From a virus, in IMG/VR virus record IMGVR_UViG_3300001097_000011, positions 14,320 to 34,957 of that record: 20,638 nucleotides of DNA; one strand, 5' to 3'. The notes beneath the pieces are model-generated. The model was not told the DNA's origin and made no database searches. It worked only from the letters and a program-made list of their open reading frames with translations. This document shows positions 1,063 to 17,430 of the stretch, in pieces (positions within the stretch are counted from its first letter, which is position 1; every line of letters starts with the position of its first letter). Both the position numbers and the translations under genes were made by a program.

Positions 1063-1645
1063 TATAGATCTTAGCACAACTTCTACTGGATTTGCGACTT
1101 TTTATTGGAACGGAACCCTTTTAGATTGTGGAGTAATAAAGCCTAAAAAAGTAAAAGGGAAGAAAGACGATACAACCTACCCAGAAACCCAGCTCTTAAG
1201 AATGTACTCTATTTGTTCTCAGATCGTAGACTTGGTAGATAAAGAACTGCCAGATGTTATTGTAGTTGAAGAGATAGCTGGTTCGTCTTCTAGACTAGGA
1301 CAAAAGACCTTAGATGGAATACATTGGATTTTGGCTGATTATTTATACAAAAACGGAACTATTAAAAAGATAGTATATTATGACGTAACTGGAGTATCTG
1401 GATGGAGAACCCATCTAAGATTAGTTTTGTCAGACGCTGACAAACTGCACAATAAAGAAGCTAAGAAACTAAATAAGATAACTAGAGGCAAAAAAATAAT
1501 ACCCATTACTTCTAAGCACCTAGCTTGCAGGTACGTAAATCACTTTTTTAAACTAAACCTAGACGTAGACTTAAATAAATCAGACTCAGACGTTTCAGAC
1601 GCTATTTGTATGGGACATTCATATTGCAAGCTTTACTTAAAGTAA
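1046..1645 (+). CDS. RuvC-like Holliday junction resolvase
   Basis: A 199-residue RNase H-fold endonuclease of the RuvC type. The first strand carries the signature SIDLSTTSTGFA with catalytic Asp8. The second acidic site is VIVVEEI (Glu75/76), and the C-terminal helix has DVSDA with Asp182 and Asp185. Together they supply the four-acid, two-metal site of RuvC. In phages such enzymes resolve recombination and replication branches before packaging, which suits its place just upstream of the terminase genes. It has an insertion of about 40 residues, rich in Lys and Thr, between residues 110 and 155 relative to a minimal RuvC. The start overlaps the phosphoesterase gene by 17 bases and has a good GAGGAAA site upstream. 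A -35-like box for the next promoter sits in its last codons. Confidence 0.85.
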   Translation: MKKLLSIDLSTTSTGFATFYWNGTLLDCGVIKPKKVKGKKDDTTYPETQLLRMYSICSQIVDLVDKELPDVIVVEEIAGSSSRLGQKTLDGIHWILADYLYKNGTIKKIVYYDVTGVSGWRTHLRLVLSDADKLHNKEAKKLNKITRGKKIIPITSKHLACRYVNHFFKLNLDVDLNKSDSDVSDAICMGHSYCKLYLK

Positions 1646-1662
1646 AATTCTTGATAAAATTT
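1632..1662 (+). promoter_or_regulatory. Class A promoter: TTTACT, 17-base spacer, GATAAAATTT
   Basis: TTTACT at 1632-1637 is followed by exactly 17 bases and then TAAAAT at 1655-1660 within GATAAAATTT (1653-1662). The ATG of the next gene begins at 1668, seven bases after the -10 hexamer, so the predicted transcript starts at or within a base of the start codon. No ribosome binding site is seen. The same arrangement recurs upstream of 7355 and 10268. Confidence 0.65.
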
Positions 1663-1667
1663 ATACT

Positions 1668-2024
1668 ATGGACCAGTCTGACAAAGTTCTATATCAAGTA
1701 AGCGGAGTAAAATGGCTGTATCAATATGAGCTAGTTTACGACCCTCAACTAATAAATCACTTAAAAATGAATATTTTAATGATATCCAATAGAATAAAAG
1801 AAGTAGAATTACTGTTTTTTACTCCAAAAAAGCAGCTTTTAATATACTTAGAGCTAGACTGGATTGGGACCAAGTTCTATGTAGAACAAAGAAACGAAGA
1901 GGTAACCTCTATAGTTAAGGATTTACTTCCTAGCTATAATATACGAGTTATAACGGATAGGACTATATTAGAGTCTTCTAAAGAGCTTTTAAAAGCAAAT
2001 ATGGGAGCGGAGATAAGTGAATAA
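1668..2024 (+). CDS. Hypothetical protein, 118 aa, probably leaderless
   Basis: An unrecognised 118-residue protein encoded between the resolvase and the small terminase. It alternates hydrophobic and charged segments (VELLFFTPKKQLLIYLEL), as expected of a small alpha/beta fold, and has no Cys, signal peptide or membrane segment. The ATG at 1668 has no ribosome binding site; instead it lies about seven bases after a strong -10 element, so translation is probably from a leaderless message. It overlaps the GTG start of the next gene by 8 bases. A packaging-related role is suggested only by position. Confidence 0.75.
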   Translation: MDQSDKVLYQVSGVKWLYQYELVYDPQLINHLKMNILMISNRIKEVELLFFTPKKQLLIYLELDWIGTKFYVEQRNEEVTSIVKDLLPSYNIRVITDRTILESSKELLKANMGAEISE

Positions 2025-2580
2025 GTTTTTAGTAAAAAATGGACAAGAAATTATAGAAGTTACAGAAGATCAGATAAGAGAGTCTTTTGTTATTGAAGGG
2101 TTATCTGAAGTTGAAATTGCTAGAAAGTATTCTGTTCCAAAAGATCAGATTATGCTTTTTGTAAAAGAAAACCACCTAAAAGCCCACAGAAGAGCCTTAA
2201 TCACAGAAGGTCTCAAAAAGATACAAAACGTTCAAGTAAAGCAAGCTAACGAGTTAATGAAGCTAGAAAGTAACTTTAAAAAACTAAAATTAATACAACT
2301 ACAACATAGCCTAAAAGACTTCGCTGCCTATTTTGAAAGATATGGTGACTTTTATAAAAGACATCACATAACTGGAGAAGTACTTAAAGATTTAAACGGT
2401 ATGCCGCTTCAATTAGATATTCCAGATGTTTCTAAAGAAATTAGTCATCTTAAGGAAGCCGTAAGTATGTCAGAAGGCTTAAAAAAACTTATAAGTCGGA
2501 TAGATGAAATTATTAATGACAAGGACCCAAAAGGACCTAGAAATTTAAACTCTGCCGTAAACGACTTTTTTGGAGATTAA
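2017..2580 (+). CDS. terS: Putative terminase small subunit
   Basis: A 187-residue, largely helical protein directly upstream of the large terminase. Residues 16-55 look like a helix-turn-helix (LSEVEIARKYSVPKDQIMLF), the DNA-recognition part of small terminases, followed by long amphipathic helices at about 60-110 and 140-170 that could form the oligomerisation coiled coil. The C-terminus is acidic and proline/asparagine rich. Start is GTG (2017) with GGAG upstream, overlapping the previous gene. Identification rests on position plus this architecture; small terminases are poorly conserved. In the family, this subunit forms a ring that recognises viral DNA and stimulates the motor. Its stop is immediately followed, with no gap, by the TTG start of the large subunit, suggesting reinitiation. 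Confidence 0.75.
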   Translation: MNKFLVKNGQEIIEVTEDQIRESFVIEGLSEVEIARKYSVPKDQIMLFVKENHLKAHRRALITEGLKKIQNVQVKQANELMKLESNFKKLKLIQLQHSLKDFAAYFERYGDFYKRHHITGEVLKDLNGMPLQLDIPDVSKEISHLKEAVSMSEGLKKLISRIDEIINDKDPKGPRNLNSAVNDFFGD

Positions 2581-4407
2581 TTGAATTTAGAAGAGATGGG
2601 CTACCAAGAATTTGTAGATTTTTTTAATTTATCTTTAGAAAAGATAAAAATAGACCCTATTAAATACTTTATTCAATCCCAAAACATTCTAGGAATTACC
2701 TTAACTCCAGCTCAAAGAGTTATCATCAAGATAGCGTTGGGCATTAAATTAGACTCAAAAGTTAAGTATGACTTATATATAGAAGTAATTGCAGATAAAT
2801 TTACTTTAGAAGAAAAACAGTATACAGAAGAGGAAATTTACTACTTTTTAACTGATAAAAGGTATGACTTTAAGCACCTAAGCCAGTTTAAAGTTAATAA
2901 AATGGACCTTATTTGTGGACGCAGAAGTGGTAAAAGTCTTATAGCAGCTATTTTATCTATCTATTTAGGAGTTACTACAAACTGGAGACCTTTTCTTAGA
3001 CTTACTCCAGCTGCTACAGTACTAATCATGTCTCACTCAAAAGAGTTCTCAGACGAAGTTTTGGACCTTATGAGAGAAATGCTTCAAAACTCACCATTAC
3101 TTACTAGATTAATTAATAAAGACAAGAAAAATACAGCTTCTACTTTGTTTCTTAAGGTGCCTTTTTTAGTAAAAGGTGTAGTAATGGACTCTCAAGTTCA
3201 GTTAAAAGTAGGAGCCGCTTCATCTAAAACCACTAGAGGCGGAGCTTGTTGCGTTATTATTTGCGACGAGATAGCTTTTTGGAACTTAGACGAAAACATG
3301 AAAGAAACAGATGTTAAAATTCTTAAAGCGGTACGTCCCACTATGAAACAGTTTGGAGAAAAGGGGATGCTTATAAAGCTATCTTCGCCAGCGATTAAGC
3401 AGGGAGTTCTTTTTAACGAGTATGAAATGGATAAGAGAGGGGAGCTTCCAGAGACTTATGCGGTTTTTAAAGCTCCTAGCTGGTTTATGAATAACGTAAT
3501 TCCTATCAATGAATACTATGAAGAGGAACGATTAGACTCAGAAGCTTTTGATAACGAGTATAGAGCTAACTTTAAAGACTCTTTATCCAATTTTATTTTA
3601 CCAGAGACAGTAGAAAGAGCTGTTTTAAAGAATGTAAAGTTCTTACCTCCTAGTGCAGACAAAAACGTTAAGTATTATGCTTCTATTGACGCTGCTTTTA
3701 AAGCCGATAGATTTACCTTTTCTTTAGTAGGAATTACCGAAAATAGGGTAACTCAGTACATATCCAAAGGATGGGAAGGCAGTAGAAGAGTTCCCATAAC
3801 CTCTTCTATTGTAGCTCAATGGATTAAAACCGCAATAAAAGACTTCCCAGTTGACTTTATCGCTGCCGATCAATTTGCTTTTCAACCTTTAAAAGAGATT
3901 TTTGAGATATATGGAGTGACCTTAAAAGAGAACACATTCACTCCAAAGTTTAAAAAACAGATATATTTTAACTTAAAAAAACTATTTCACTCAGAACAGA
4001 TAGACCTACTAGATAACCCTTTACAAACTAAAGAGATTAAGGAGCTGGTAGTAGAACAGTCAGCTAGCGGCACCATAAAAATAGGTCATCCAATGGCTGG
4101 GTCAGACGATTTTTCTGACTCTTTAGCCGTTGCTTCATATTTAGCCGTTGAGAACGTATCCGCTGGAAAGTTTGAATTTGACACAGCGCTTTCAATGAAT
4201 ACTTACGACATTAAGATGGATGCAGAAGGAAGAGCTATTGGAGCCGCTCCTTCTGTAGATATGCTTACTTCACAAGGATACTTAGATGCAAAAATCATAG
4301 ACAATTCAGCTAGTTACGCAGTTGATCCATTTGACGGAATTTTAAAACACATAAGCAAGATCTTAGACGATGACGACGAGGACAGTGGTCCTCAGTTCAT
4401 TTTTTAA
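2581..4407 (+). CDS. terL: Terminase large subunit (packaging ATPase and nuclease)
   Basis: A 608-residue motor protein that translocates DNA through the portal and cuts it. The N-terminal ATPase has Walker A GRRSGKS at 113-119, Walker B VIICDE with Asp229-Glu230, and a coupling-type LSSP at 267-270. The C-terminal RNase H-like nuclease shows the expected three acids: Asp370 in YYASIDAAF, Asp430 in FIAADQF and Asp513 in DDFSDSLA. All key residues are present. The start is taken as TTG at 2581, directly after the TAA of the small subunit; the alternative ATG at 2596 would remove only five residues. A tail of about 70 residues follows the nuclease and ends in an acidic stretch (ILDDDDEDSG) before the stop. 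Confidence 0.95.
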   Translation: MNLEEMGYQEFVDFFNLSLEKIKIDPIKYFIQSQNILGITLTPAQRVIIKIALGIKLDSKVKYDLYIEVIADKFTLEEKQYTEEEIYYFLTDKRYDFKHLSQFKVNKMDLICGRRSGKSLIAAILSIYLGVTTNWRPFLRLTPAATVLIMSHSKEFSDEVLDLMREMLQNSPLLTRLINKDKKNTASTLFLKVPFLVKGVVMDSQVQLKVGAASSKTTRGGACCVIICDEIAFWNLDENMKETDVKILKAVRPTMKQFGEKGMLIKLSSPAIKQGVLFNEYEMDKRGELPETYAVFKAPSWFMNNVIPINEYYEEERLDSEAFDNEYRANFKDSLSNFILPETVERAVLKNVKFLPPSADKNVKYYASIDAAFKADRFTFSLVGITENRVTQYISKGWEGSRRVPITSSIVAQWIKTAIKDFPVDFIAADQFAFQPLKEIFEIYGVTLKENTFTPKFKKQIYFNLKKLFHSEQIDLLDNPLQTKEIKELVVEQSASGTIKIGHPMAGSDDFSDSLAVASYLAVENVSAGKFEFDTALSMNTYDIKMDAEGRAIGAAPSVDMLTSQGYLDAKIIDNSASYAVDPFDGILKHISKILDDDDEDSGPQFIF

Positions 4408-4435
4408 GGTATAATTTGATATAAAAGGGCTTTTA
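4408..4435 (+). promoter_or_regulatory. Class B promoter GGTATAATTT with 5' leader hairpin
   Basis: GGTATAATTT at 4408-4417 follows the terminase stop with no gap. No TTGACA- or TTTACT-like box is found 16-18 bases upstream. The predicted start of transcription, about 4422, coincides with the left foot of a small hairpin, TAAAA-GGGC-TTTTA at 4422-4435. It would drive the portal gene 17 bases downstream of the motif's predicted start. Confidence 0.6.
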
Positions 4436-4438
4436 CGG

Positions 4439-6286
4439 ATGTCAGAAGATAAAAAAACTTCAATATTTTCAAAAATAGTAGACGCAGCTAATTTAGCGTT
4501 AGAAGATACTATAGCAAAGTCTAGAGCTTCTCTAGCTTCTAAGGGTAGTTTATCGGAAGAGGACTATTTTTATGCTAAAACATTAACAGAAGACCCAACA
4601 ACTTCGGTCCATGCTCAAGGATGGAGAGAAAGAACTTCGAGAATAAACGCAAGCCATTTAAAACAAATGTCTTACCAAGATAGCGTTATAACTTCTGTGA
4701 TATTAACTAGACAAAACCAAGCATCTTTACACTCTAAGCTAGTTGGCAACAAAAATCTTCCTGGATGGATGATTGAAGTCAAAGACGTAAGAGATAAGAT
4801 AGCGAAGATAAAAGAAAAAATGTCTTCTAAAAAACCTAAAAAAAATAAGAAAAACGATAACTTAGAAAATCCTGACGTTTCAGATGGAAGCGATGATGAC
4901 ATAGAAGAGATTGACTGGGAGTTAGAGCGTAAAGCTCAAGCTGAGTTAACAAAAGCTACAGAAAAGAAAATGAAAGAAGTAGAAGCTTTTATTCAAAACT
5001 GCGGAATTACTGACAATAGACCTTTCGAGACTTTAAAGTGGACTTTTGACGGAGCGCTTAGAGCGTGGGTTCGAGACTCTTTAACTTACGATCTGTATGC
5101 TTCTGAGATAGTTCCAGGAAAGCTAGGACAACCGCATCACTGGTTTCCAGTAGATGCCGCTACTATCAAATATTCATCTAGTCAACTTAGTAATTATAAA
5201 GACGCTGCCGAACAGTTCCAAAATATTGATATTCTTTTCCCTGAATCTAACCCTCAAAAAAGAGAAAAAGTTCAAGAAAGACTGAAGTTAGATGAAGAGG
5301 CTTTACGTTTAGACAAATACAAATGGGTTCAAGTAGTCCGTGGTAGAATAGAAAGAGCTTACACTCATGAAGAGCTAAAAGTAGGCATTAGAAACGTAAA
5401 CACTGATATTTATAATAATGGATATGGTATTTCAGAGTTAGAGCTTTTAGTTTCATTAGTTACTGGCCATCTAAATGCTGAATTTTATAACCAAGCTTAT
5501 TTTACACAAGGATTTAGCGCAAAAGGAATTTTGCATATTAAAGCCAATATCTCTAGAAGAAAAATAGAGACAGTTCGCCAACAATGGCAACATATGTTAA
5601 AAGGAAGCAGAAACTCTTTTCAAACTCCTATTTTTGCAGGAGTAGACGAGGTTTCATGGATACCTTTGACTCAAAATCATACAGATATTGGTTTTGAAGG
5701 CTGGATGCGTTACTTAATTAGAATGATTTGTGCCATTTACCAAATAGACCCAGCTGAAATCGGAGTAAATTTAAAAGATGAAGGCGGAGGCGGAATGTCT
5801 GGAGATAACACTAAAGAGAAGATAATTCACTCCAAAGGCAGAGGTCTTTATCCTTTAATGAGACACTTAGAAAACTACATAAACACTAATATATTAGCTC
5901 CTTCTTATCCAGAGTTTGAGCTTAAGTTTTGCGGTTTAACTGGCGAAAGCGAAGAGGAATTAGTAAATAGACTTGAAAAAGAAGTTAAGTTTGCCAAAAC
6001 TGTTAACGAAATTAGAAAAGAGTTAGACTTACCGCCACTTCCTGGAGTAGATGATTTAATTTTAAATAATGAGTATCTTAACCATTATAATAGATATTCT
6101 AAGAAAGCTCAAGAAATTCCAGACCCAGCTATGGGAGGATTTCAACAAGACGGAGCACCGCCAGAAGGGGAAGCCGAAGACCCTCAAGTAGAAGAGGCTT
6201 TTGCTTTACTTAATAAGTCTAAGTCGGTACAATCTAAAGGAAAAAAAGTACCTAGAATTATAGAGTACTACTACGACGAGGATTAA
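4439..6286 (+). CDS. Portal protein
   Basis: A 615-residue protein immediately after the large terminase with the profile of a phage portal: the dodecameric ring at the packaging vertex that docks the terminase and later the neck. The recognisable part is the C-terminal half, with WIPLTQNHTDIGFEGWMRYL and ICAIYQIDPAEIGV, typical of the region where portal proteins inspect and list candidate residues near the channel crown, followed by a glycine-rich loop (DEGGGGMSGD). Residues about 110-165 form an unusual insertion with a strongly basic run (SSKKPKKNKKNDN) followed by an acidic run (DGSDDDIEEIDWE), likely a surface loop. The C-terminus is proline and acid rich, then basic. Ribosome binding is weak (AAAAGGG). 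Promoter and hairpin lie just upstream. Confidence 0.88.
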   Translation: MSEDKKTSIFSKIVDAANLALEDTIAKSRASLASKGSLSEEDYFYAKTLTEDPTTSVHAQGWRERTSRINASHLKQMSYQDSVITSVILTRQNQASLHSKLVGNKNLPGWMIEVKDVRDKIAKIKEKMSSKKPKKNKKNDNLENPDVSDGSDDDIEEIDWELERKAQAELTKATEKKMKEVEAFIQNCGITDNRPFETLKWTFDGALRAWVRDSLTYDLYASEIVPGKLGQPHHWFPVDAATIKYSSSQLSNYKDAAEQFQNIDILFPESNPQKREKVQERLKLDEEALRLDKYKWVQVVRGRIERAYTHEELKVGIRNVNTDIYNNGYGISELELLVSLVTGHLNAEFYNQAYFTQGFSAKGILHIKANISRRKIETVRQQWQHMLKGSRNSFQTPIFAGVDEVSWIPLTQNHTDIGFEGWMRYLIRMICAIYQIDPAEIGVNLKDEGGGGMSGDNTKEKIIHSKGRGLYPLMRHLENYINTNILAPSYPEFELKFCGLTGESEEELVNRLEKEVKFAKTVNEIRKELDLPPLPGVDDLILNNEYLNHYNRYSKKAQEIPDPAMGGFQQDGAPPEGEAEDPQVEEAFALLNKSKSVQSKGKKVPRIIEYYYDED

Positions 6287-6288
6287 AA

Positions 6289-6501
6289 TTGTCTTCTATA
6301 AAAATAAACATTCCTAAAGGTATGAGTCAGGACCAAGCTGACGACATACTTTTAAAAGCTCTCAAAAGAAAGGAAGACGGTAACGTTGGCCCTTCTGTTT
6401 TTGAAGATGAAATAATGAAGGAAGTGTTTAATATTTTTAAAGATAACTACGAAAAAATGTCAGAAAAGATAATAAAAGAGATCTTAGATGAACTTAAGTA
6501 A
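6289..6501 (+). CDS. Hypothetical small helical protein, 70 aa
   Basis: Unrecognised, 70 residues, lying between portal and MuF-like genes. TTG start at 6289 with GAGGA ending in the portal stop region; no ATG is available before residue 10 or so. The sequence is helical and charged (MSEKIIKEILDELK at the end), without Cys or hydrophobic segment. It overlaps the next gene by 14 bases, so the three genes probably form one translational unit. It may assist portal or minor head protein assembly, but this is only from position. Confidence 0.65.
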   Translation: MSSIKINIPKGMSQDQADDILLKALKRKEDGNVGPSVFEDEIMKEVFNIFKDNYEKMSEKIIKEILDELK

Positions 6502-7318
6502 AGAGCTTTTAGCCAAAATCAAAAAAATCATTGAAAAAAACCATACATTTCTAACCCTTTCTGTGTTAGGAAAGAGCTCCTTTACCAAAGAAGAGGTAGA
6601 AGAGTTCAAAAAATTAACAGGTAAAGAACCCAACAACGAAAAATCCTTGTTGGAGTATGTTTATCTTTCTAACTTTGCAGATACTCCAGTTAAAAACTTA
6701 AGCGAATTAGACTCTATAAAAACCCCTAGAAAAGACACAATACTTCAATCAGATGAAGTTATAAAGACTTTGATTGCAAAATTATCCCAAGACATGAGTC
6801 AAAAAATGCTAAATAGTCTTATAGACGTTACTAGATCGTATAGAAATGAGGACTTCACAGAAGCGCTTAAAAACAAGTCTTTTTCTGAGATAAAACAGAG
6901 ATTTAAAGACATATCTGGAGACGGAAATAGAGATTGGGGAAGAGTCGTTGCTACCGAAATGTCAAACCTAATAGGTTATGGTTCAGTAGACAAAATCCTA
7001 AAAGACGGAGGCGACCCAGAAGAAACCTATGTATTTAGAAAGATTGTAGGGGACATAAAAACTTGTCGCTGGTGCCGTAAGTTTTACGGAGAAAATACCC
7101 CAAAAGTATATAAACTATCGACTTTATTAGCTAATGGCTCTAACTATGGAAAACTTAAAGAAGACTGGCAAGGCGTAGTAGGTGCTACACATCCTAATAC
7201 TAGAACAAGTCCAATAATTGAAATCCCAGTAGGTTATATCCCAAATTCCTCTGGAGTGCTTACTTTTGTAGGTAAAGAAAAATTCTTAGAATTTATTGAA
7301 GAAAATTTAGAATCTTAG
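6488..7318 (+). CDS. MuF-like minor head (head morphogenesis) protein
   Basis: A 276-residue protein next to the portal with the C-terminal signature of the Mu gpF / SPP1 gp7 family: a Cys pair in KTCRWCRKFYG (Cys193, Cys196) followed about 50 residues later by ATHPNTRTSP (His245 to Arg249). In most family members the second element is HPNCRC; here both later cysteines are replaced by Thr, so a canonical Cys4 metal site cannot form and only C-x2-C plus His remain. The N-terminal 120 residues are helical. In SPP1 the homologue sits inside the capsid on the portal and influences DNA ejection. The start ATG at 6488 overlaps the previous gene. Its end contains the -35 box of the next promoter. 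Confidence 0.8.
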   Translation: MNLSKELLAKIKKIIEKNHTFLTLSVLGKSSFTKEEVEEFKKLTGKEPNNEKSLLEYVYLSNFADTPVKNLSELDSIKTPRKDTILQSDEVIKTLIAKLSQDMSQKMLNSLIDVTRSYRNEDFTEALKNKSFSEIKQRFKDISGDGNRDWGRVVATEMSNLIGYGSVDKILKDGGDPEETYVFRKIVGDIKTCRWCRKFYGENTPKVYKLSTLLANGSNYGKLKEDWQGVVGATHPNTRTSPIIEIPVGYIPNSSGVLTFVGKEKFLEFIEENLES

Positions 7319-7319
7319 G

Positions 7320-7350
7320 TTTACTTTTTACTCTTTTTTGTATAAAATTT
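7320..7350 (+). promoter_or_regulatory. Class A promoter: TTTACT, 17-base spacer, TATAAAATTT
   Basis: TTTACT at 7320-7325 is followed by 17 bases and TAAAAT at 7343-7348 in TATAAAATTT. The ATG of the next gene is at 7355, six bases past the -10 hexamer, again where transcription should start. No ribosome binding site is present. Nearly identical in plan to the elements at 1632 and 10233. Confidence 0.65.
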
Positions 7351-7354
7351 GTAT

Positions 7355-7564
7355 ATGAAAAGACTAGAAGAAGGCCAGATAATCTTTAAAAAAGAGACTC
7401 CAGAAGAACTATTTTATGTTTTAGGAGTAAAAAAAGAGACTTTAAAAGAGATTATAGTGTCTTTTTTAATATTAGATAAATCGACAATGGAGTCAAAGAA
7501 AGGATTAAGTCTAACCATTAAAAAAGCTGAGTTATCTAACTGGAGCGAGTTTAAACTAACATGA
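7355..7564 (+). CDS. Hypothetical protein, 69 aa, probably leaderless
   Basis: Not recognised. From ATG 7355 it gives 69 residues beginning MKRLEEGQIIF, rich in Lys and Glu with beta-type hydrophobic runs (EIIVSFLILDK). A TTG six bases upstream (7349) is in frame, but it lies inside the promoter and is rejected in favour of the ATG, which sits at the predicted transcription start. Its last bases overlap the next ATG (7561-7564), the common ATGA coupling. It opens the accessory block between the portal genes and the capsid genes. Confidence 0.7.
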   Translation: MKRLEEGQIIFKKETPEELFYVLGVKKETLKEIIVSFLILDKSTMESKKGLSLTIKKAELSNWSEFKLT

Positions 7565-8052
7565 GTCAACTACAAGAACTATTAACTAAACTTCAGAAAC
7601 AAAAATCTAAGATAGAGCTTTTAAACATCTATAAGCAGGTTTTAAACCAAACGTGTATACCAGACTCAGACACAGATAAGCATCTTAAAGAAGTTGAACA
7701 AGACGTTAAAAATTCTATTGTTCTTTTTATTGAAAAGTTTATAGAAAAATTAGAAACGGTAGAGTCTGCCGCTCCTACTCCAATAGCTCCAATAATCAAC
7801 AAAGTAGAAAGTAAAGGACCTATTCCAGAACCAAACTTCGCTTTAGATTTATCTGAGAAGTATTCTTTAATAGAAAAACAACACTTTGGCATTACTCACA
7901 GGCACCTAGCAGGGAAGGTAGTTTATGTAAACGACCCTTCCGGAGAAAACTACAGTGGCGAAGTGGTGCAGTTAAACTGTCCTTACGTTATAGTTAAAAC
8001 AAGTTCAGGAATAAAAAAAGTAACCTTAGAAAGCATTAGCCTTGGAGAATAA
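7561..8052 (+). CDS. Hypothetical protein with coiled-coil N-terminus and SH3/KOW-like C-terminus
   Basis: A 163-residue unknown. Residues 1-25 and 40-70 form charged amphipathic helices, then a proline-rich linker (SAAPTPIAPI) leads to a beta-rich C-terminal module of about 45 residues: HLAGKVVYVNDPSGENYSGE, then a strand pair with VIVKTSSGIKKV. The pattern of short strands with G-K-V-V-Y at its start resembles SH3-like or KOW-type barrels that bind protein or nucleic acid; this is a fold guess. Start overlaps the preceding gene by 4 bases and the stop is two bases from the next ATG, so it belongs to the 7355-9472 operon. Confidence 0.75.
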   Translation: MSQLQELLTKLQKQKSKIELLNIYKQVLNQTCIPDSDTDKHLKEVEQDVKNSIVLFIEKFIEKLETVESAAPTPIAPIINKVESKGPIPEPNFALDLSEKYSLIEKQHFGITHRHLAGKVVYVNDPSGENYSGEVVQLNCPYVIVKTSSGIKKVTLESISLGE

Positions 8053-8054
8053 AG

Positions 8055-8597
8055 ATGGGAAAAAAGAAACAGCCAACAAAATCATTTGAGCATATAGTAT
8101 CAGACATGACAACTAAGAAGTTTGAACCACTAATCAAGCAGCTTATTGCAGAGTCTTTCTCTCAATTTGCGTTTAAGTATAACGATACTTTACGAGATCT
8201 ATTTTTAAAGGTAGCCGTTATTGACGATATTTTAACTGAAAAAATTGAAACTATTAGCTTTAACGGTATAGCTAGTAGAGTAGCAGATAAACAGGATGTA
8301 ATGGAAGGCTACAAAAGTTTGAAAGGTCCAGAAGAAAAAATTACCGCTAACGATAGAGTTAGAATTTCTATGGAAATTAAAGAAAAAGACGCAGCTGATT
8401 TTGGCGAAGTTCAAAAATTACAGATAGATGCAGTAGGTTCTGGACAAACATTAGGTATTGAGTTTGAAACTCATTTAATAGATATGGTCAATTATACTAC
8501 AAAAGAAGTTATTCTAAAAGGTAAAGACGAAACAGATCAAGTAGCTGGAGTAACTATTAGAGTTGTAGTAGATAAAATCTCTAGAAAAGAGGCATAA
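8055..8597 (+). CDS. Hypothetical protein, 180 aa, upstream of co-chaperonin
   Basis: Not recognised. The first 60 residues are helical with a basic start (MGKKKQPTKSFEH). Residues about 60-180 are probably beta-rich, with alternating strands such as RVRISMEIKEKD and GVTIRVVVDKISR at the end. No Cys, membrane segment or catalytic motif stands out. Start ATG 8055 is two bases after the preceding stop, and its stop is one base from the GTG of the GroES-like gene. Because the next gene is a co-chaperonin, a structural or assembly-client role is possible but unproven. Confidence 0.75.
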   Translation: MGKKKQPTKSFEHIVSDMTTKKFEPLIKQLIAESFSQFAFKYNDTLRDLFLKVAVIDDILTEKIETISFNGIASRVADKQDVMEGYKSLKGPEEKITANDRVRISMEIKEKDAADFGEVQKLQIDAVGSGQTLGIEFETHLIDMVNYTTKEVILKGKDETDQVAGVTIRVVVDKISRKEA

Positions 8598-8598
8598 A

Positions 8599-8853
8599 GT
8601 GAAGATTGCAATGAGAAAAAAGTTAGTGGCAGTAGAGCCAGACACTAAGCCAAAAGCTAGTGGTCCTTTTGTTGGAATGGACTCTGATAATAATACTTCT
8701 GGAATAGTTAGATTTTTAGGTCCAGACGTAGATCAAGACATTAAAATAGGCGCTAAAGTGTTTTTTGCAAGTAAAATAGCTAACTTAGTCATAGAAGGAA
8801 AAAATTTAAGTATCATGGAGTCTGATAATATTGTAGCCATTGTTGAGGATTAA
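8599..8853 (+). CDS. GroES-like (Cpn10) co-chaperonin
   Basis: An 84-residue protein with the layout of GroES, whose usual length is about 97. The N-terminal strand KKLVAVEPD matches the GroES opening; residues about 16-33 (KASGPFVGMDSDNNTSG) occupy the mobile-loop position that contacts GroEL; GIVRFLGPDV is the following strand; IKIGAKVFF matches the conserved GD-x-V-hydrophobic segment; and the end LSIMESDNIVAIVED closely matches the GroES C-terminus. It probably caps the host GroEL to fold capsid proteins, as T4 gp31 does. GTG at 8599 is preferred over ATG 8611 because it keeps the full first strand; GAGG lies upstream. The next gene starts four bases after the stop. Confidence 0.85.
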   Translation: MKIAMRKKLVAVEPDTKPKASGPFVGMDSDNNTSGIVRFLGPDVDQDIKIGAKVFFASKIANLVIEGKNLSIMESDNIVAIVED

Positions 8854-8857
8854 TCAG

Positions 8858-9472
8858 ATGTCTAAAAAAAATCCTGTAAAAAGTTTAGATTTAGACACGG
8901 CTAAAACTTCTGTAGAAAACAAAATAACCATGACTTCACTCTTACTCAGCTATCAGTTTGAGTATGGAGTTAACTTTAATGAAAGAATAATAAACTTGAC
9001 TGGAGACATAGACGAAACTATGTTCTTTGTTTTAGACTCAGCTTTAAATGAGATGGAAACTAAATCCAAAAAAGATATCGTTATTAAAATTCATTCGGTA
9101 GGAGGAAATGTTTACGATGCATTGGCTATCGTGGGCAGAATAACTGAATGTAAGTGTAAGATAATCACTAAAGGGTACGGTTGTGTCATGAGTGCCGCTA
9201 CCTTAATATTAGCTTCTGGAACCAGACGAAGAGAAATATCTAAGTATGGTAGATTTATGTGGCATGAAGCTTCCTATTCTTTAGAAGGAAAACATTCAGA
9301 AATAAAAGCTACCGTAAAAGAAATGGAAAGAGAAGAGGCTTTATTTTCAGAGTACATGGCAGAATTTACCAAAAAGGACGCTAAATTCTGGAGATCTACT
9401 GGAGTACACGAGGATGCATATTTTTCACCTAACCAGCTAAAATCTTTTGGCGTGGTAGACGAGGTATTTTAA
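8858..9472 (+). CDS. ClpP-like serine peptidase (family S14), cytoplasmic
   Basis: A 204-residue ClpP-type peptidase. VIKIHSVGGNVYDALAI matches the ClpP N-S-P-G-G-x-V segment, with Val replacing Pro. The nucleophile is Ser112 in GCVMSAATLI and the catalytic His is His136 in FMWHEAS. The ending SFGVVDEVF corresponds to the ClpP GLID motif. The third residue is not assigned with certainty. There is no signal peptide. Start ATG 8858 has GAGG 10 bases upstream; an in-frame TTG at 8840 lies inside the co-chaperonin gene and is rejected. S14 peptidases in head modules often serve as prohead proteases, but this phage also encodes a herpes-assemblin-like candidate at 11871, so this one may process another virion protein or modify host proteolysis. 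Confidence 0.85.
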   Translation: MSKKNPVKSLDLDTAKTSVENKITMTSLLLSYQFEYGVNFNERIINLTGDIDETMFFVLDSALNEMETKSKKDIVIKIHSVGGNVYDALAIVGRITECKCKIITKGYGCVMSAATLILASGTRRREISKYGRFMWHEASYSLEGKHSEIKATVKEMEREEALFSEYMAEFTKKDAKFWRSTGVHEDAYFSPNQLKSFGVVDEVF

Positions 9473-10209
9473 TGAATATATTTGAAAAAGCAATTTTAGA
9501 GATGTTAGAGGTAAAAACTACTCCCAGAGTAAAAACTACCAAAAACTTCGCTCCTTCTTTGTTAGGGTCGCCTTGCGAAAGAAAGATCTATTACACTTAT
9601 AACTGTGTAGCAGAAGAGGCCATAAAGCAGACTTTACCATTAAAGGTAGCTTTAGAAGCTGGAAAGGCATACGAGGAAATAGTTCTAGGCTTTCTAAGAA
9701 ACGCAGGTATGACTTTAGTTGAAGACCCCATCTCATTTAACAAACAAATTCAGATATCTAGCCCTGAAATAGGGATAAATAAGGCATTTATAGACATTTT
9801 GCACGTTAAAGACAACGTAGCCTATGTAGGAGAGATAAAGTCTTGTACCCTAAAAGATTTTAAGGATATAGAAAAGAAAAACCTTCCCAAGCCTACACAT
9901 TTAGTTCAGGGAGTTTTGTATTTATATATCTTAAGAAGTATGTTAAAAAATGGTAGACTAGCCCACCTAAAGGAGATGAAAGACGTTAAAACCATAAAAA
10001 GCATCTCTTTTATCTATATATGTAAGGATTCTGGAGCCATAAAGATCATGGAGCTAGATAAGGCAGATGGAGTTTTTACCGACATCTACAAAAAGATTAC
10101 TAAAATTAAGGAGTTTTCTGAAAAGAAGATACTCCCACCTAAAACTTTTGACTTTTGTATGAATTGTCCCTTTAAATCCAAGTGTTACAGGGAATTTAAT
10201 GACATTTAA
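9472..10209 (+). CDS. Cas4/RecB-like PD-(D/E)XK nuclease with Fe-S cluster
   Basis: A 245-residue nuclease with the Cas4/AddB arrangement. Four cysteines that would bind a 4Fe-4S cluster flank the nuclease core: Cys35 in SPCERKIY, and Cys229, Cys232 and Cys238 in DFCMNCPFKSKCY at the C-terminus. Between them lie the catalytic elements: Glu68/69 in KAYEEIV, Asp109 region in FIDIL, GEIKSC with Glu121 and Lys123, and the Q-x3-Y motif in HLVQGVLY. All residues expected for activity are present. Such enzymes degrade single- or double-stranded DNA ends, and phage copies function in recombination, replication or host DNA breakdown. No CRISPR genes or repeats are nearby. Its ATG shares bases with the ClpP-like gene's stop, so the two are translated together. 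Confidence 0.88.
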   Translation: MNIFEKAILEMLEVKTTPRVKTTKNFAPSLLGSPCERKIYYTYNCVAEEAIKQTLPLKVALEAGKAYEEIVLGFLRNAGMTLVEDPISFNKQIQISSPEIGINKAFIDILHVKDNVAYVGEIKSCTLKDFKDIEKKNLPKPTHLVQGVLYLYILRSMLKNGRLAHLKEMKDVKTIKSISFIYICKDSGAIKIMELDKADGVFTDIYKKITKIKEFSEKKILPPKTFDFCMNCPFKSKCYREFNDI

Positions 10210-10232
10210 TTCAAATATTTTAGCTGTTTTTA

Positions 10233-10263
10233 TTAACTTTTATATGATTTGTAGATATAATTT
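10233..10263 (+). promoter_or_regulatory. Class A promoter: TTAACT, 17-base spacer, GATATAATTT
   Basis: TTAACT at 10233-10238, a 17-base spacer and TATAAT at 10256-10261 in GATATAATTT. The ATG of the 59-residue gene begins at 10268, six bases after the hexamer. No ribosome binding site precedes it. The element lies in the short gap after the nuclease gene. Confidence 0.65.
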
Positions 10264-10267
10264 TGAT

Positions 10268-10447
10268 ATGAAAGAGTCGGTAACCGTTTTAAAAATCAGA
10301 CAACAATTAAGGAATAGCCTTCTTTTCTGTTTAAATCAATCTATAATTAATTTTAAAGTAGCTAATGCCTTAAAAGAGGACATTAATTTTTGTAATGTTT
10401 TATTAGCTTCTTTAAACAAACAATATAATGAAAAGGTATATAAATGA
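10268..10447 (+). CDS. Hypothetical protein, 59 aa, probably leaderless
   Basis: Unrecognised. From ATG 10268 it encodes 59 residues (MKESVTVLKIRQQL at the start), helical, with two Cys and a basic C-terminus. The frame is also open upstream to an ATG at 10199, but that version would overlap the nuclease gene and be read through the promoter; the internal ATG at the predicted transcription start is preferred. Its stop overlaps the next ATG (10444), so it seems to serve as the leader cistron of the membrane protease operon. Confidence 0.6.
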   Translation: MKESVTVLKIRQQLRNSLLFCLNQSIINFKVANALKEDINFCNVLLASLNKQYNEKVYK

Positions 10448-11442
10448 GTAATCTAGGAATAGTTTTAAGAGTTTCTTTAGTAGCCGTAGTTGTTTCACTG
10501 TTTATATTTCTTTCTGGTTCTCCACAAGAAATAAGATCATTTGCTAAAGGCATAGGAGTTGACGCTCCAGTTATTGATAATACAACTATAATCCCTTATA
10601 AAAAAGAGTTTATCCCAGAAGCTTCTAACTTAGTATTACTTTCAACAAACGATCAACAAACAGAAGGACAACCAGAAAGATTAACTTTAGAAAAGGGTAG
10701 CTTTTATTCCTTTAATAGTGTTGTTACTAGCTCTTACGTTGCTACTTCTATGCAAGCTATAATGAAGCTAGACCAAGAGTTAGAAAAAGGCAAGCCTTTA
10801 TATTTAGTTTTAAATACCCCTGGAGGTTCTATTTTTTCAGGAGTAGAGTTTATTGATTTCCTAAAAGGATTAGATAGAGAAGTTAAAACAATTTCTTTAT
10901 TTAGCGCATCAATGGGTTTTGCCTTCGTTCAAGAGCTAGGAGAGAGAATAGTAACCGATAACTCTCTTCTAATGGCACATAGATCAGCTGGAGGAGTAGA
11001 GGGACAGTTTGATGGCGAATTAGAGTCTAGATATAACATGATAAAGAGAAAAATAGACCTTTTAGAGATTAGAGCGGCAAAAAGACTTCAAATTCCAGTG
11101 AAAGATTATAGACAAAAAGTATTAAATGAATACTGGGTCCACGGTTTTGACGCAGTAGGCGACAAAGCTGCCGATAAAAACGTAAGATTAAAGTGCGGCA
11201 GTAGTCTTTCTGGTACAAGTGTTAAACAAATTCCTTTTGTTTTTGGAATAATTTTGCAGGTAACTTTCTCAGATTGTCCTTTAATAAAAGAGCCATTAGG
11301 AATTACAGCTAAACTTCCAGAAGAAAGCTCAAAAGAATTAGTTAAACAAGCAAAAGATTTAGTAAACGAGTTACATTCTAGTAAAGAAACCTTCTTTAAT
11401 GACTATGTAAAGACTGGAAGATATAAGTTGTTTTTCAAATAA
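10444..11442 (+). CDS. Membrane-anchored ClpP/SppA-like serine peptidase
   Basis: A 332-residue ClpP-fold protein with an N-terminal hydrophobic segment at about 5-24 (VLRVSLVAVVVSLFIFL), either a signal peptide or an uncleaved anchor; no lipobox Cys follows. The core has LVLNTPGGSIFSGVEF (the N-x-PGG-x-V strand-turn), nucleophile Ser156 in FSASMGFAF, catalytic His179 in LMAHRSAGG, and YWVHGFDAVGDKAAD, matching the ClpP segment before its GLID motif. After about residue 235 there is a tail of about 95 residues with two Cys (near 241 and 278) that could form a disulfide outside the cytoplasm. Its function is unknown; possibilities are envelope proteolysis during infection, superinfection control or lysis support. 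It is coupled to the preceding 59-residue gene by a 4-base overlap. Confidence 0.8.
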   Translation: MSNLGIVLRVSLVAVVVSLFIFLSGSPQEIRSFAKGIGVDAPVIDNTTIIPYKKEFIPEASNLVLLSTNDQQTEGQPERLTLEKGSFYSFNSVVTSSYVATSMQAIMKLDQELEKGKPLYLVLNTPGGSIFSGVEFIDFLKGLDREVKTISLFSASMGFAFVQELGERIVTDNSLLMAHRSAGGVEGQFDGELESRYNMIKRKIDLLEIRAAKRLQIPVKDYRQKVLNEYWVHGFDAVGDKAADKNVRLKCGSSLSGTSVKQIPFVFGIILQVTFSDCPLIKEPLGITAKLPEESSKELVKQAKDLVNELHSSKETFFNDYVKTGRYKLFFK

Positions 11443-12977: not shown

Positions 12978-13007
12978 GGTATAATTTAAAAGTTAGGAGA
13001 AATAACT
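12978..13007 (+). promoter_or_regulatory. Class B promoter GGTATAATTT with RBS-containing hairpin
   Basis: GGTATAATTT occupies 12978-12987, three bases after the protease stop, with no -35-like box. Predicted transcription start, about 12991-12992, falls at the foot of a 5-bp stem, AGTTA (12991-12995) with TAACT (13003-13007), whose 7-base loop GGAGAAA holds the ribosome binding site. The hairpin ends directly before ATG 13008. The stem is short and AT-rich, so any effect on translation would be modest. Confidence 0.55.
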
Positions 13008-13867: not shown

Positions 13868-13900
13868 TCTATTCTATCAAATTAATATCAAAAAGTAAAG

Positions 13901-13931
13901 AAAAGTCTTCGGTAAAAGGAAGGCTTTTTTG
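13901..13931 (+). terminator. Rho-independent terminator after the scaffold gene
   Basis: AAAAGTCTTC (13901-13910) pairs with GAAGGCTTTT (13919-13928) through a 10-bp stem with one G-U pair and an 8-base loop GGTAAAAG, followed by a T-rich run. It separates the protease/scaffold unit from the capsid protein unit, whose promoter begins seven bases later. Confidence 0.8.
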
Positions 13932-13937
13932 TTTTGT

Positions 13938-13947
13938 GGTATAATTT
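13938..13947 (+). promoter_or_regulatory. Class B promoter GGTATAATTT of the major capsid gene
   Basis: A perfect copy of the recurring motif right after the terminator. TGG precedes TATAAT, so it also fits an extended -10. No -35 box exists because the upstream sequence is terminator stem. Predicted start is near 13952. Confidence 0.7.
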
Positions 13948-15449: not shown

Positions 15450-15482
15450 AAAACCCTTAAACAAACTTTAAGGGTTTTTTTT
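15450..15482. terminator. Bidirectional rho-independent terminator
   Basis: AAAACCCTTAAA (15450-15461), loop CAAAC and TTTAAGGGTTTT (15467-15478) form a perfect 12-bp stem with a long T tail on the + strand and a short TTTT on the - strand. It lies between the major capsid gene and a convergent gene on the minus strand and can end both transcripts. Confidence 0.88.
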
Positions 15483-17400: not shown

Positions 17401-17430
17401 GATATAATTTGATTGAAAGCATGGGCTTTC
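17401..17430 (+). promoter_or_regulatory. Class B promoter GATATAATTT with 5' leader hairpin
   Basis: GATATAATTT at 17401-17410 is preceded by TT, giving a TGA-TATAAT extended -10. Predicted start is about 17415, exactly the left foot of GAAAGC-ATGG-GCTTTC (17415-17430), the strongest of the leader hairpins, with TTTT after it. An AAAGGA site follows, then ATG 17447. The stem plus TTTT might also act as a weak terminator for the upstream genes. Confidence 0.6.

Follow-up and report, generated by a model that had tools for sequence, protein, structure and literature searches.

The cI message transcribed from PRM in phage lambda is leaderless, the AUG of that gene forming the 5' end of its transcript. 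Such behavior in lambda concerns a single repressor gene; the phages described below resemble it in carrying genes whose AUG would lie at a transcript 5' end, and differ from it in that the arrangement recurs as a conserved design across at least 16 protein families.

Further precedents have been described in bacteria and in a phage of Thermus. In phage phiYS40, most of the middle and late mRNAs are leaderless (Sevostyanova et al. 2007, as summarised in review PMC3594737), while in D. radiodurans a -10 motif located 6-7 bp before an open reading frame was demonstrated experimentally to drive leaderless genes (PMC12340547). Work cited in PMC9031893 indicates that leaderless translation in E. 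coli requires AUG. The '-10 region adjacent to ORF' genes of the Deinococcus-Thermus group (PMC12340547; PMC3160421) are similar to those considered here in the placement of a -10 box 6-7 bp before the start and in the lack of a Shine-Dalgarno (SD) sequence, but they are cellular genes with a degenerate TANNNT box, whereas the present phages display TATAAT with a G at -2.

The DNA analyzed here (20,638 nucleotides, corresponding to positions 14320-34957 of a 46,988-bp IMG/VR virus record, and referred to below as the window) contains the head and packaging module of a large tailed phage, with genes encoding a RuvC-like protein, TerL, portal, two ClpP-like proteases, a Cas4/RecB-like nuclease and the major capsid protein, while GroEL-like, DnaB-like, PolA and RecA-like proteins are encoded in its flanks. 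Isolated phages are distant matches, those of the SPO1 type displaying approximately 30-33% identity to the portal, prohead protease and capsid. The GC content of the phage group ranges from 33 to 52%, no tRNAs were found in the loci scanned, and when 84,980 species genomes were scanned for a host by portal alignment and with RNR, no relative turned up. At 8858-11442 of the window the Cas4/RecB-like nuclease is flanked on both sides by the ClpP-like proteases, and in phiYS40 ClpP likewise adjoins a RecB-like nuclease. The major capsid gene is bracketed by strong terminator-like hairpins (13899-13930 and 15450-15478), in a window that contains 24 terminator-like matches against 9.7 expected.

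Three sites on the plus strand of the window share an exact layout. A TTTACT -35 box at 1632-1637 is followed after 17 nt by a TAAAAT -10 box (1655-1660), and after 7 nt more by ATG1668; a second TTTACT box (7320-7325) is followed at the same spacing by TAAAAT (7343-7348) and then, after 6 nt, by ATG7355; and at the third site TTAACT (10233-10238), a 17-nt spacer, TATAAT (10256-10261) and 6 nt lead to ATG10268. The first-pass annotation had described these three layouts, and each is present as claimed. The pattern TTWACT-17-TAWAAT occurs in the window exclusively at these sites, in each case with an ATG 6-7 nt beyond it; none of 100 shuffled windows reached three occurrences (mean 0.24), and with the ATG included the pattern was absent from all of the shuffles. 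Scanned for generic sigma-70 promoters, the window gave 58 matches, against a shuffled mean of 59.4, and because such matches are not in excess, the signal resides in the spacing between the -10 box and the ATG rather than in the number of promoters. The first-pass annotation had further noted that these three ATGs lack a ribosome binding site while most other genes possess one, and duplex energies bear this out: computed with a canonical 16S tail, which may not be that of the host, pairing with the anti-SD sequence is +0.4 to +0.8 kcal/mol at the three ATGs, versus -2.9 kcal/mol or better at 25 of the 26 other window starts, 11445 being the sole exception. Beyond the window, the same phage carries a fourth start of the leaderless type at L007:3279-3692 (G000:37978), in which TTAACA-16-TATAAT-6-ATG precedes the gene of a 137-aa protein.

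The three predicted leaderless genes, all on the plus strand, encode proteins of 118 aa (1668-2024), 69 aa (7355-7564) and 59 aa (10268-10447), each located first in its gene run, in keeping with the earlier description of small proteins heading operons. A search of PHROG assigned the three proteins to no family, save for a marginal match to the product of 10268, and a Pfam search with the 1668 protein returned no match. Gene 1668, whose N-terminus is conserved, immediately precedes a likely small-terminase gene and TerL, and overlaps the next gene by 8 nt. Genes 7355 and 10268 each end in an ATGA overlap with the following gene (at 7561 and 10444), and these 4-nt overlaps suggest translational coupling; that of 7355 is kept in homologs L003, L010 and L016.

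Initiation at ATG1668, ATG7355 and ATG10268 is very probably leaderless, to judge from features of the sequence. In the proposed mechanism, an RNA polymerase carrying a sigma factor of the sigma-70 type would bind an extended -10 element, assisted at the three window sites by the TTWACT -35 box placed 17 nt away, and would take the A of the ATG, 7-8 nt beyond the -10 box, as its transcription start. The ribosome would then recognize the 5'-terminal AUG directly, without an SD sequence, and the downstream genes of each run would be translated by way of their own SD sequences and stop-start coupling. As the promoter is the same, only the presence of its ATG at the transcription start would decide whether a gene is leaderless or leadered.

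Conservation of the spacing in relatives, a check that the first-pass annotation had proposed, is evident at both short and long range. In close relatives, with proteins 88-96% identical, the two boxes are retained, still 17 nt apart and followed 6-7 nt later by the ATG, and substitutions fall outside of the boxes; the TTTACT at 1632 is identical in these relatives. More distant relatives were compared at protein identities of 24-52%, and the spacing recurs there for all three genes, though not in every lineage. In each of the 11 lineages compared for the 10268 family, TATAAT or TACAAT precedes a conserved first ATG by 5-8 nt (mostly 6). In the 1668 family, TANNNT is found at 6-7 nt in approximately 10 of 15 lineages and the others mostly display SD sequences, with L026, L030 and L128 having SD-led starts instead; homologs from relatives of 45-52% GC (L011 and L015) display a degenerate -10 box (TACCAT and TACTAT). 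The 7355 family retains the geometry in four of seven lineages (the -10 box being kept in L003, L010 and L016, and TTTACT-17 in L010 and L016), has an SD sequence in L019 and L024, and includes one ambiguous case. In both the 10268 and the 7355 family, the protein alignment begins at this ATG, which encodes the first residue to be conserved. Homologs of two SD-led window genes appear leaderless in relatives: those of 1046 at L030:5096 and L012:5844, and those of 11871 at L018:12026, L027:16393 and L012:17987. From their sequences, genes thus look to switch initiation mode between relatives, from leaderless to SD-led and the reverse.

The same spacing stands out across the group as a whole. In 18 related records (approximately 0.5 Mb and 728 ORFs, with the expectation taken from other distances), an exact TATAAT lies 6-7 nt before an ATG in 26 cases versus 3.2 expected (P ~1.7e-15, a value that overstates the strength of the result since homologous sites are not independent). 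The starts found at that distance are ATG in all 26 cases and GTG or TTG in none, although both of the latter serve as starts elsewhere; this restriction matches the AUG requirement of leaderless translation. SD sequences accompany 8% of the leaderless-type starts, versus 80% where TATAAT lies 15-39 nt before the start. The peak was replicated in held-out loci added later (6 versus 1.0 expected, P = 6.6e-4), and a further peak is found in phiYS40 (8 versus 2.4 expected, P = 0.003). More distant carriers of ClpP display a weak peak only, crAss001 and phiKZ display a weak peak at most, and T4, SPO1 and the Pelagibacter phage HTVC008M have no peak in the distance from TATAAT to ATG; D29 contains too few boxes for a comparison. 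The proposal of leaderless initiation made in the first-pass annotation is supported on several grounds, namely the conserved spacing, the ATG as first conserved residue, in-frame stops just before it in most of the distant 10268 homologs, the lack of an SD sequence and the exclusive use of AUG.

Several other explanations deserve consideration. One is that RNA polymerase starts slightly upstream, leaving a leader of 1-5 nt, and that the ribosome still loads at an AUG close to the 5' end. The choice of start site varies by 1-2 nt, sites at distances of 7 nt (14 sites) and 8 nt (7 sites) occur, and by sequence a leader of 1-3 nt is indistinguishable from none; the distribution nonetheless has a sharp mode at 6 nt, which accounts for 21 of the 28 exact TATAAT sites at 6-8 nt and sets the ATG at the canonical +1, and in leadered promoters an A occupies position 7 past the -10 box in 57%. 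A short leader is accordingly regarded as unlikely. That TATAAT-like boxes lie near ATGs by chance in AT-rich intergenic DNA would fit the ordinary number of sigma-70-like matches in the window, but is contradicted by the distance-specific peak, the depletion of SD sequences, the restriction to AUG and the conservation across lineages; chance was rejected on the shuffles, the distance peak and the held-out loci, and is given hardly any weight.

It could also be argued that the promoters are real, but that translation of the ORFs relies on longer readthrough transcripts, on upstream starts (10199) or on coupling to the preceding gene. In favor of this is the ATG at 10199, which is in frame with 10268, follows an SD-like AGGGAA, is overlapped by the preceding gene and would extend the protein at its N-terminus (10199-10267, plus strand). 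This frame is still open in close relatives, where a second, longer 10268 product is consequently possible, but the extension is missing from distant homologs, and in most of these a stop codon in frame, located 6 nt before the ATG, rules out upstream starts. The first-pass annotation had named translation from 7349 or 10199 as evidence that would count against its proposal. The former was rejected, the TTG at 7349 having become TTA in close relatives; the latter was rejected for distant relatives, while the nearest ones keep it open. The frame of gene 1668 contains no start further upstream, and none of the three ATGs offers an SD sequence to any readthrough message. Translation by these routes is judged slightly less probable than a short leader, and leaderless initiation at the three ATGs remains the preferred reading.

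The promoters themselves appear to be of a single kind. Logos aligned on the -10 box are identical for leaderless and leadered sites, with G at -2 (65-73%), a purine at -1, TATAAT and a following T, giving a common extended -10 element of GRTATAATT. Within the window, four plus-strand sites carry a TATAATTT-type -10 box with a leader and an SD sequence: TATAATTTGATAT at 4410-4415, which lies 23 nt from the portal ATG4439; a box at 12980-12985, 22 nt before ATG13008 and its SD AGGAG; a box at 13940-13945, upstream of the major capsid gene (ATG14019, SD AGGAG); and TATAATTTGAT at 17403-17408, 38 nt before the SD-led ATG17447. A TTDACH -35 box at spacers of 16-18 nt is found in 8 of 42 leaderless sites, six of them at exactly 17 nt, versus 0.8 expected; among leadered sites the count is 2 of 41. 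A real -35 box is present at a minority of the leaderless sites, including the three in the window. The first-pass annotation had assigned the three sites to a 'class A' of promoters. The TTWACT-17 geometry of that class stands, but its status as a separate class was rejected in strong form, because a logo common to both types of start reduces 'class A' mainly to the placement of an ATG at +1 on one promoter, an extended -10 element that leadered genes share.

A candidate for the factor that reads such promoters is encoded by relatives of this phage. Three relatives that reach the locus (G001, G003 and G014) encode a full-length RpoD-like sigma factor of 460-463 aa, at L031:10400-11791 (minus strand), L039:4632-6017 (plus strand) and L131:1018-2400 (minus strand); the window's own 47-kb fragment ends before that locus, the gene being expected about 8-10 kb further on, and absence there consequently says nothing. 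The domains of these proteins match sigma region 2 (2.5e-19), region 4 (3e-11) and region 3 (1.4e-4, below the curated cut-off), and the score against the NCBIfam RpoD equivalog is 233 bits, under the cut-off of 555. The side that reads the -10 box is kept, with ATWWI-Q in region 2, while the helix that reads the -35 box, which is VTRERIRQIEAKAL in bacterial primary sigmas, is altered to a L/ITKMGVRLVQNKGL-like sequence in all three relatives. This alteration is possibly the cause of promoters dominated by their -10 element. No match to a multisubunit RNA polymerase was found in five related records. We tentatively suggest, as a broader scheme that is itself rather doubtful, that a phage RpoD-like sigma with a rebuilt -35 helix might steer host RNA polymerase to GRTATAATT, and that ATGs have repeatedly been set at +1 of such promoters; part of the proteome would then be leaderless, hosts need not use leaderless genes themselves, and genes could switch between modes.

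The closest parallel is phiYS40. It is a large lytic phage with many leaderless transcripts, as predicted for the present group, and its genome likewise has a 6-7 nt peak between -10 box and ATG; it also combines an extended -10 element with a weak -35 (in the present group, the G at -2 and the 8 of 42 sites given above), and its portal, protease and RecA are weakly homologous to those found here. A shift in the balance of host IF2 and IF3 during infection is a further feature of the phiYS40 programme. It differs in its Thermus host, while the present group has the GC range noted above, intermingles leaderless with SD-led genes on the same promoter and is known here from sequence alone. Kinship is not close, the matches to phiYS40 being weak (24-27%) and the head genes being nearer to those of SPO1 (30-33%). 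The first-pass annotation had considered that a repeated leaderless design of identical geometry would be unusual in a phage, a view to be adjusted in the light of phiYS40, a precedent for a repeated leaderless design in a phage (PMC3594737).

The comparison of sequences thus gives good support to the view that a known strategy, that of leaderless sigma-70 genes with phiYS40 as precedent, extends to a new and uncultured clade of large phages. Leaderless expression would then be a conserved design in such a clade, beyond lambda cI and the phages of Thermus, and gene finders that rely on ribosome binding sites could misplace starts of this kind. The sigma factor of the relatives is a candidate for how these promoters became dominated by the -10 element, and the homologous genes that appear to flip between leaderless and SD-led starts on the same promoter would provide natural sets with which to test why a virus picks one or the other.
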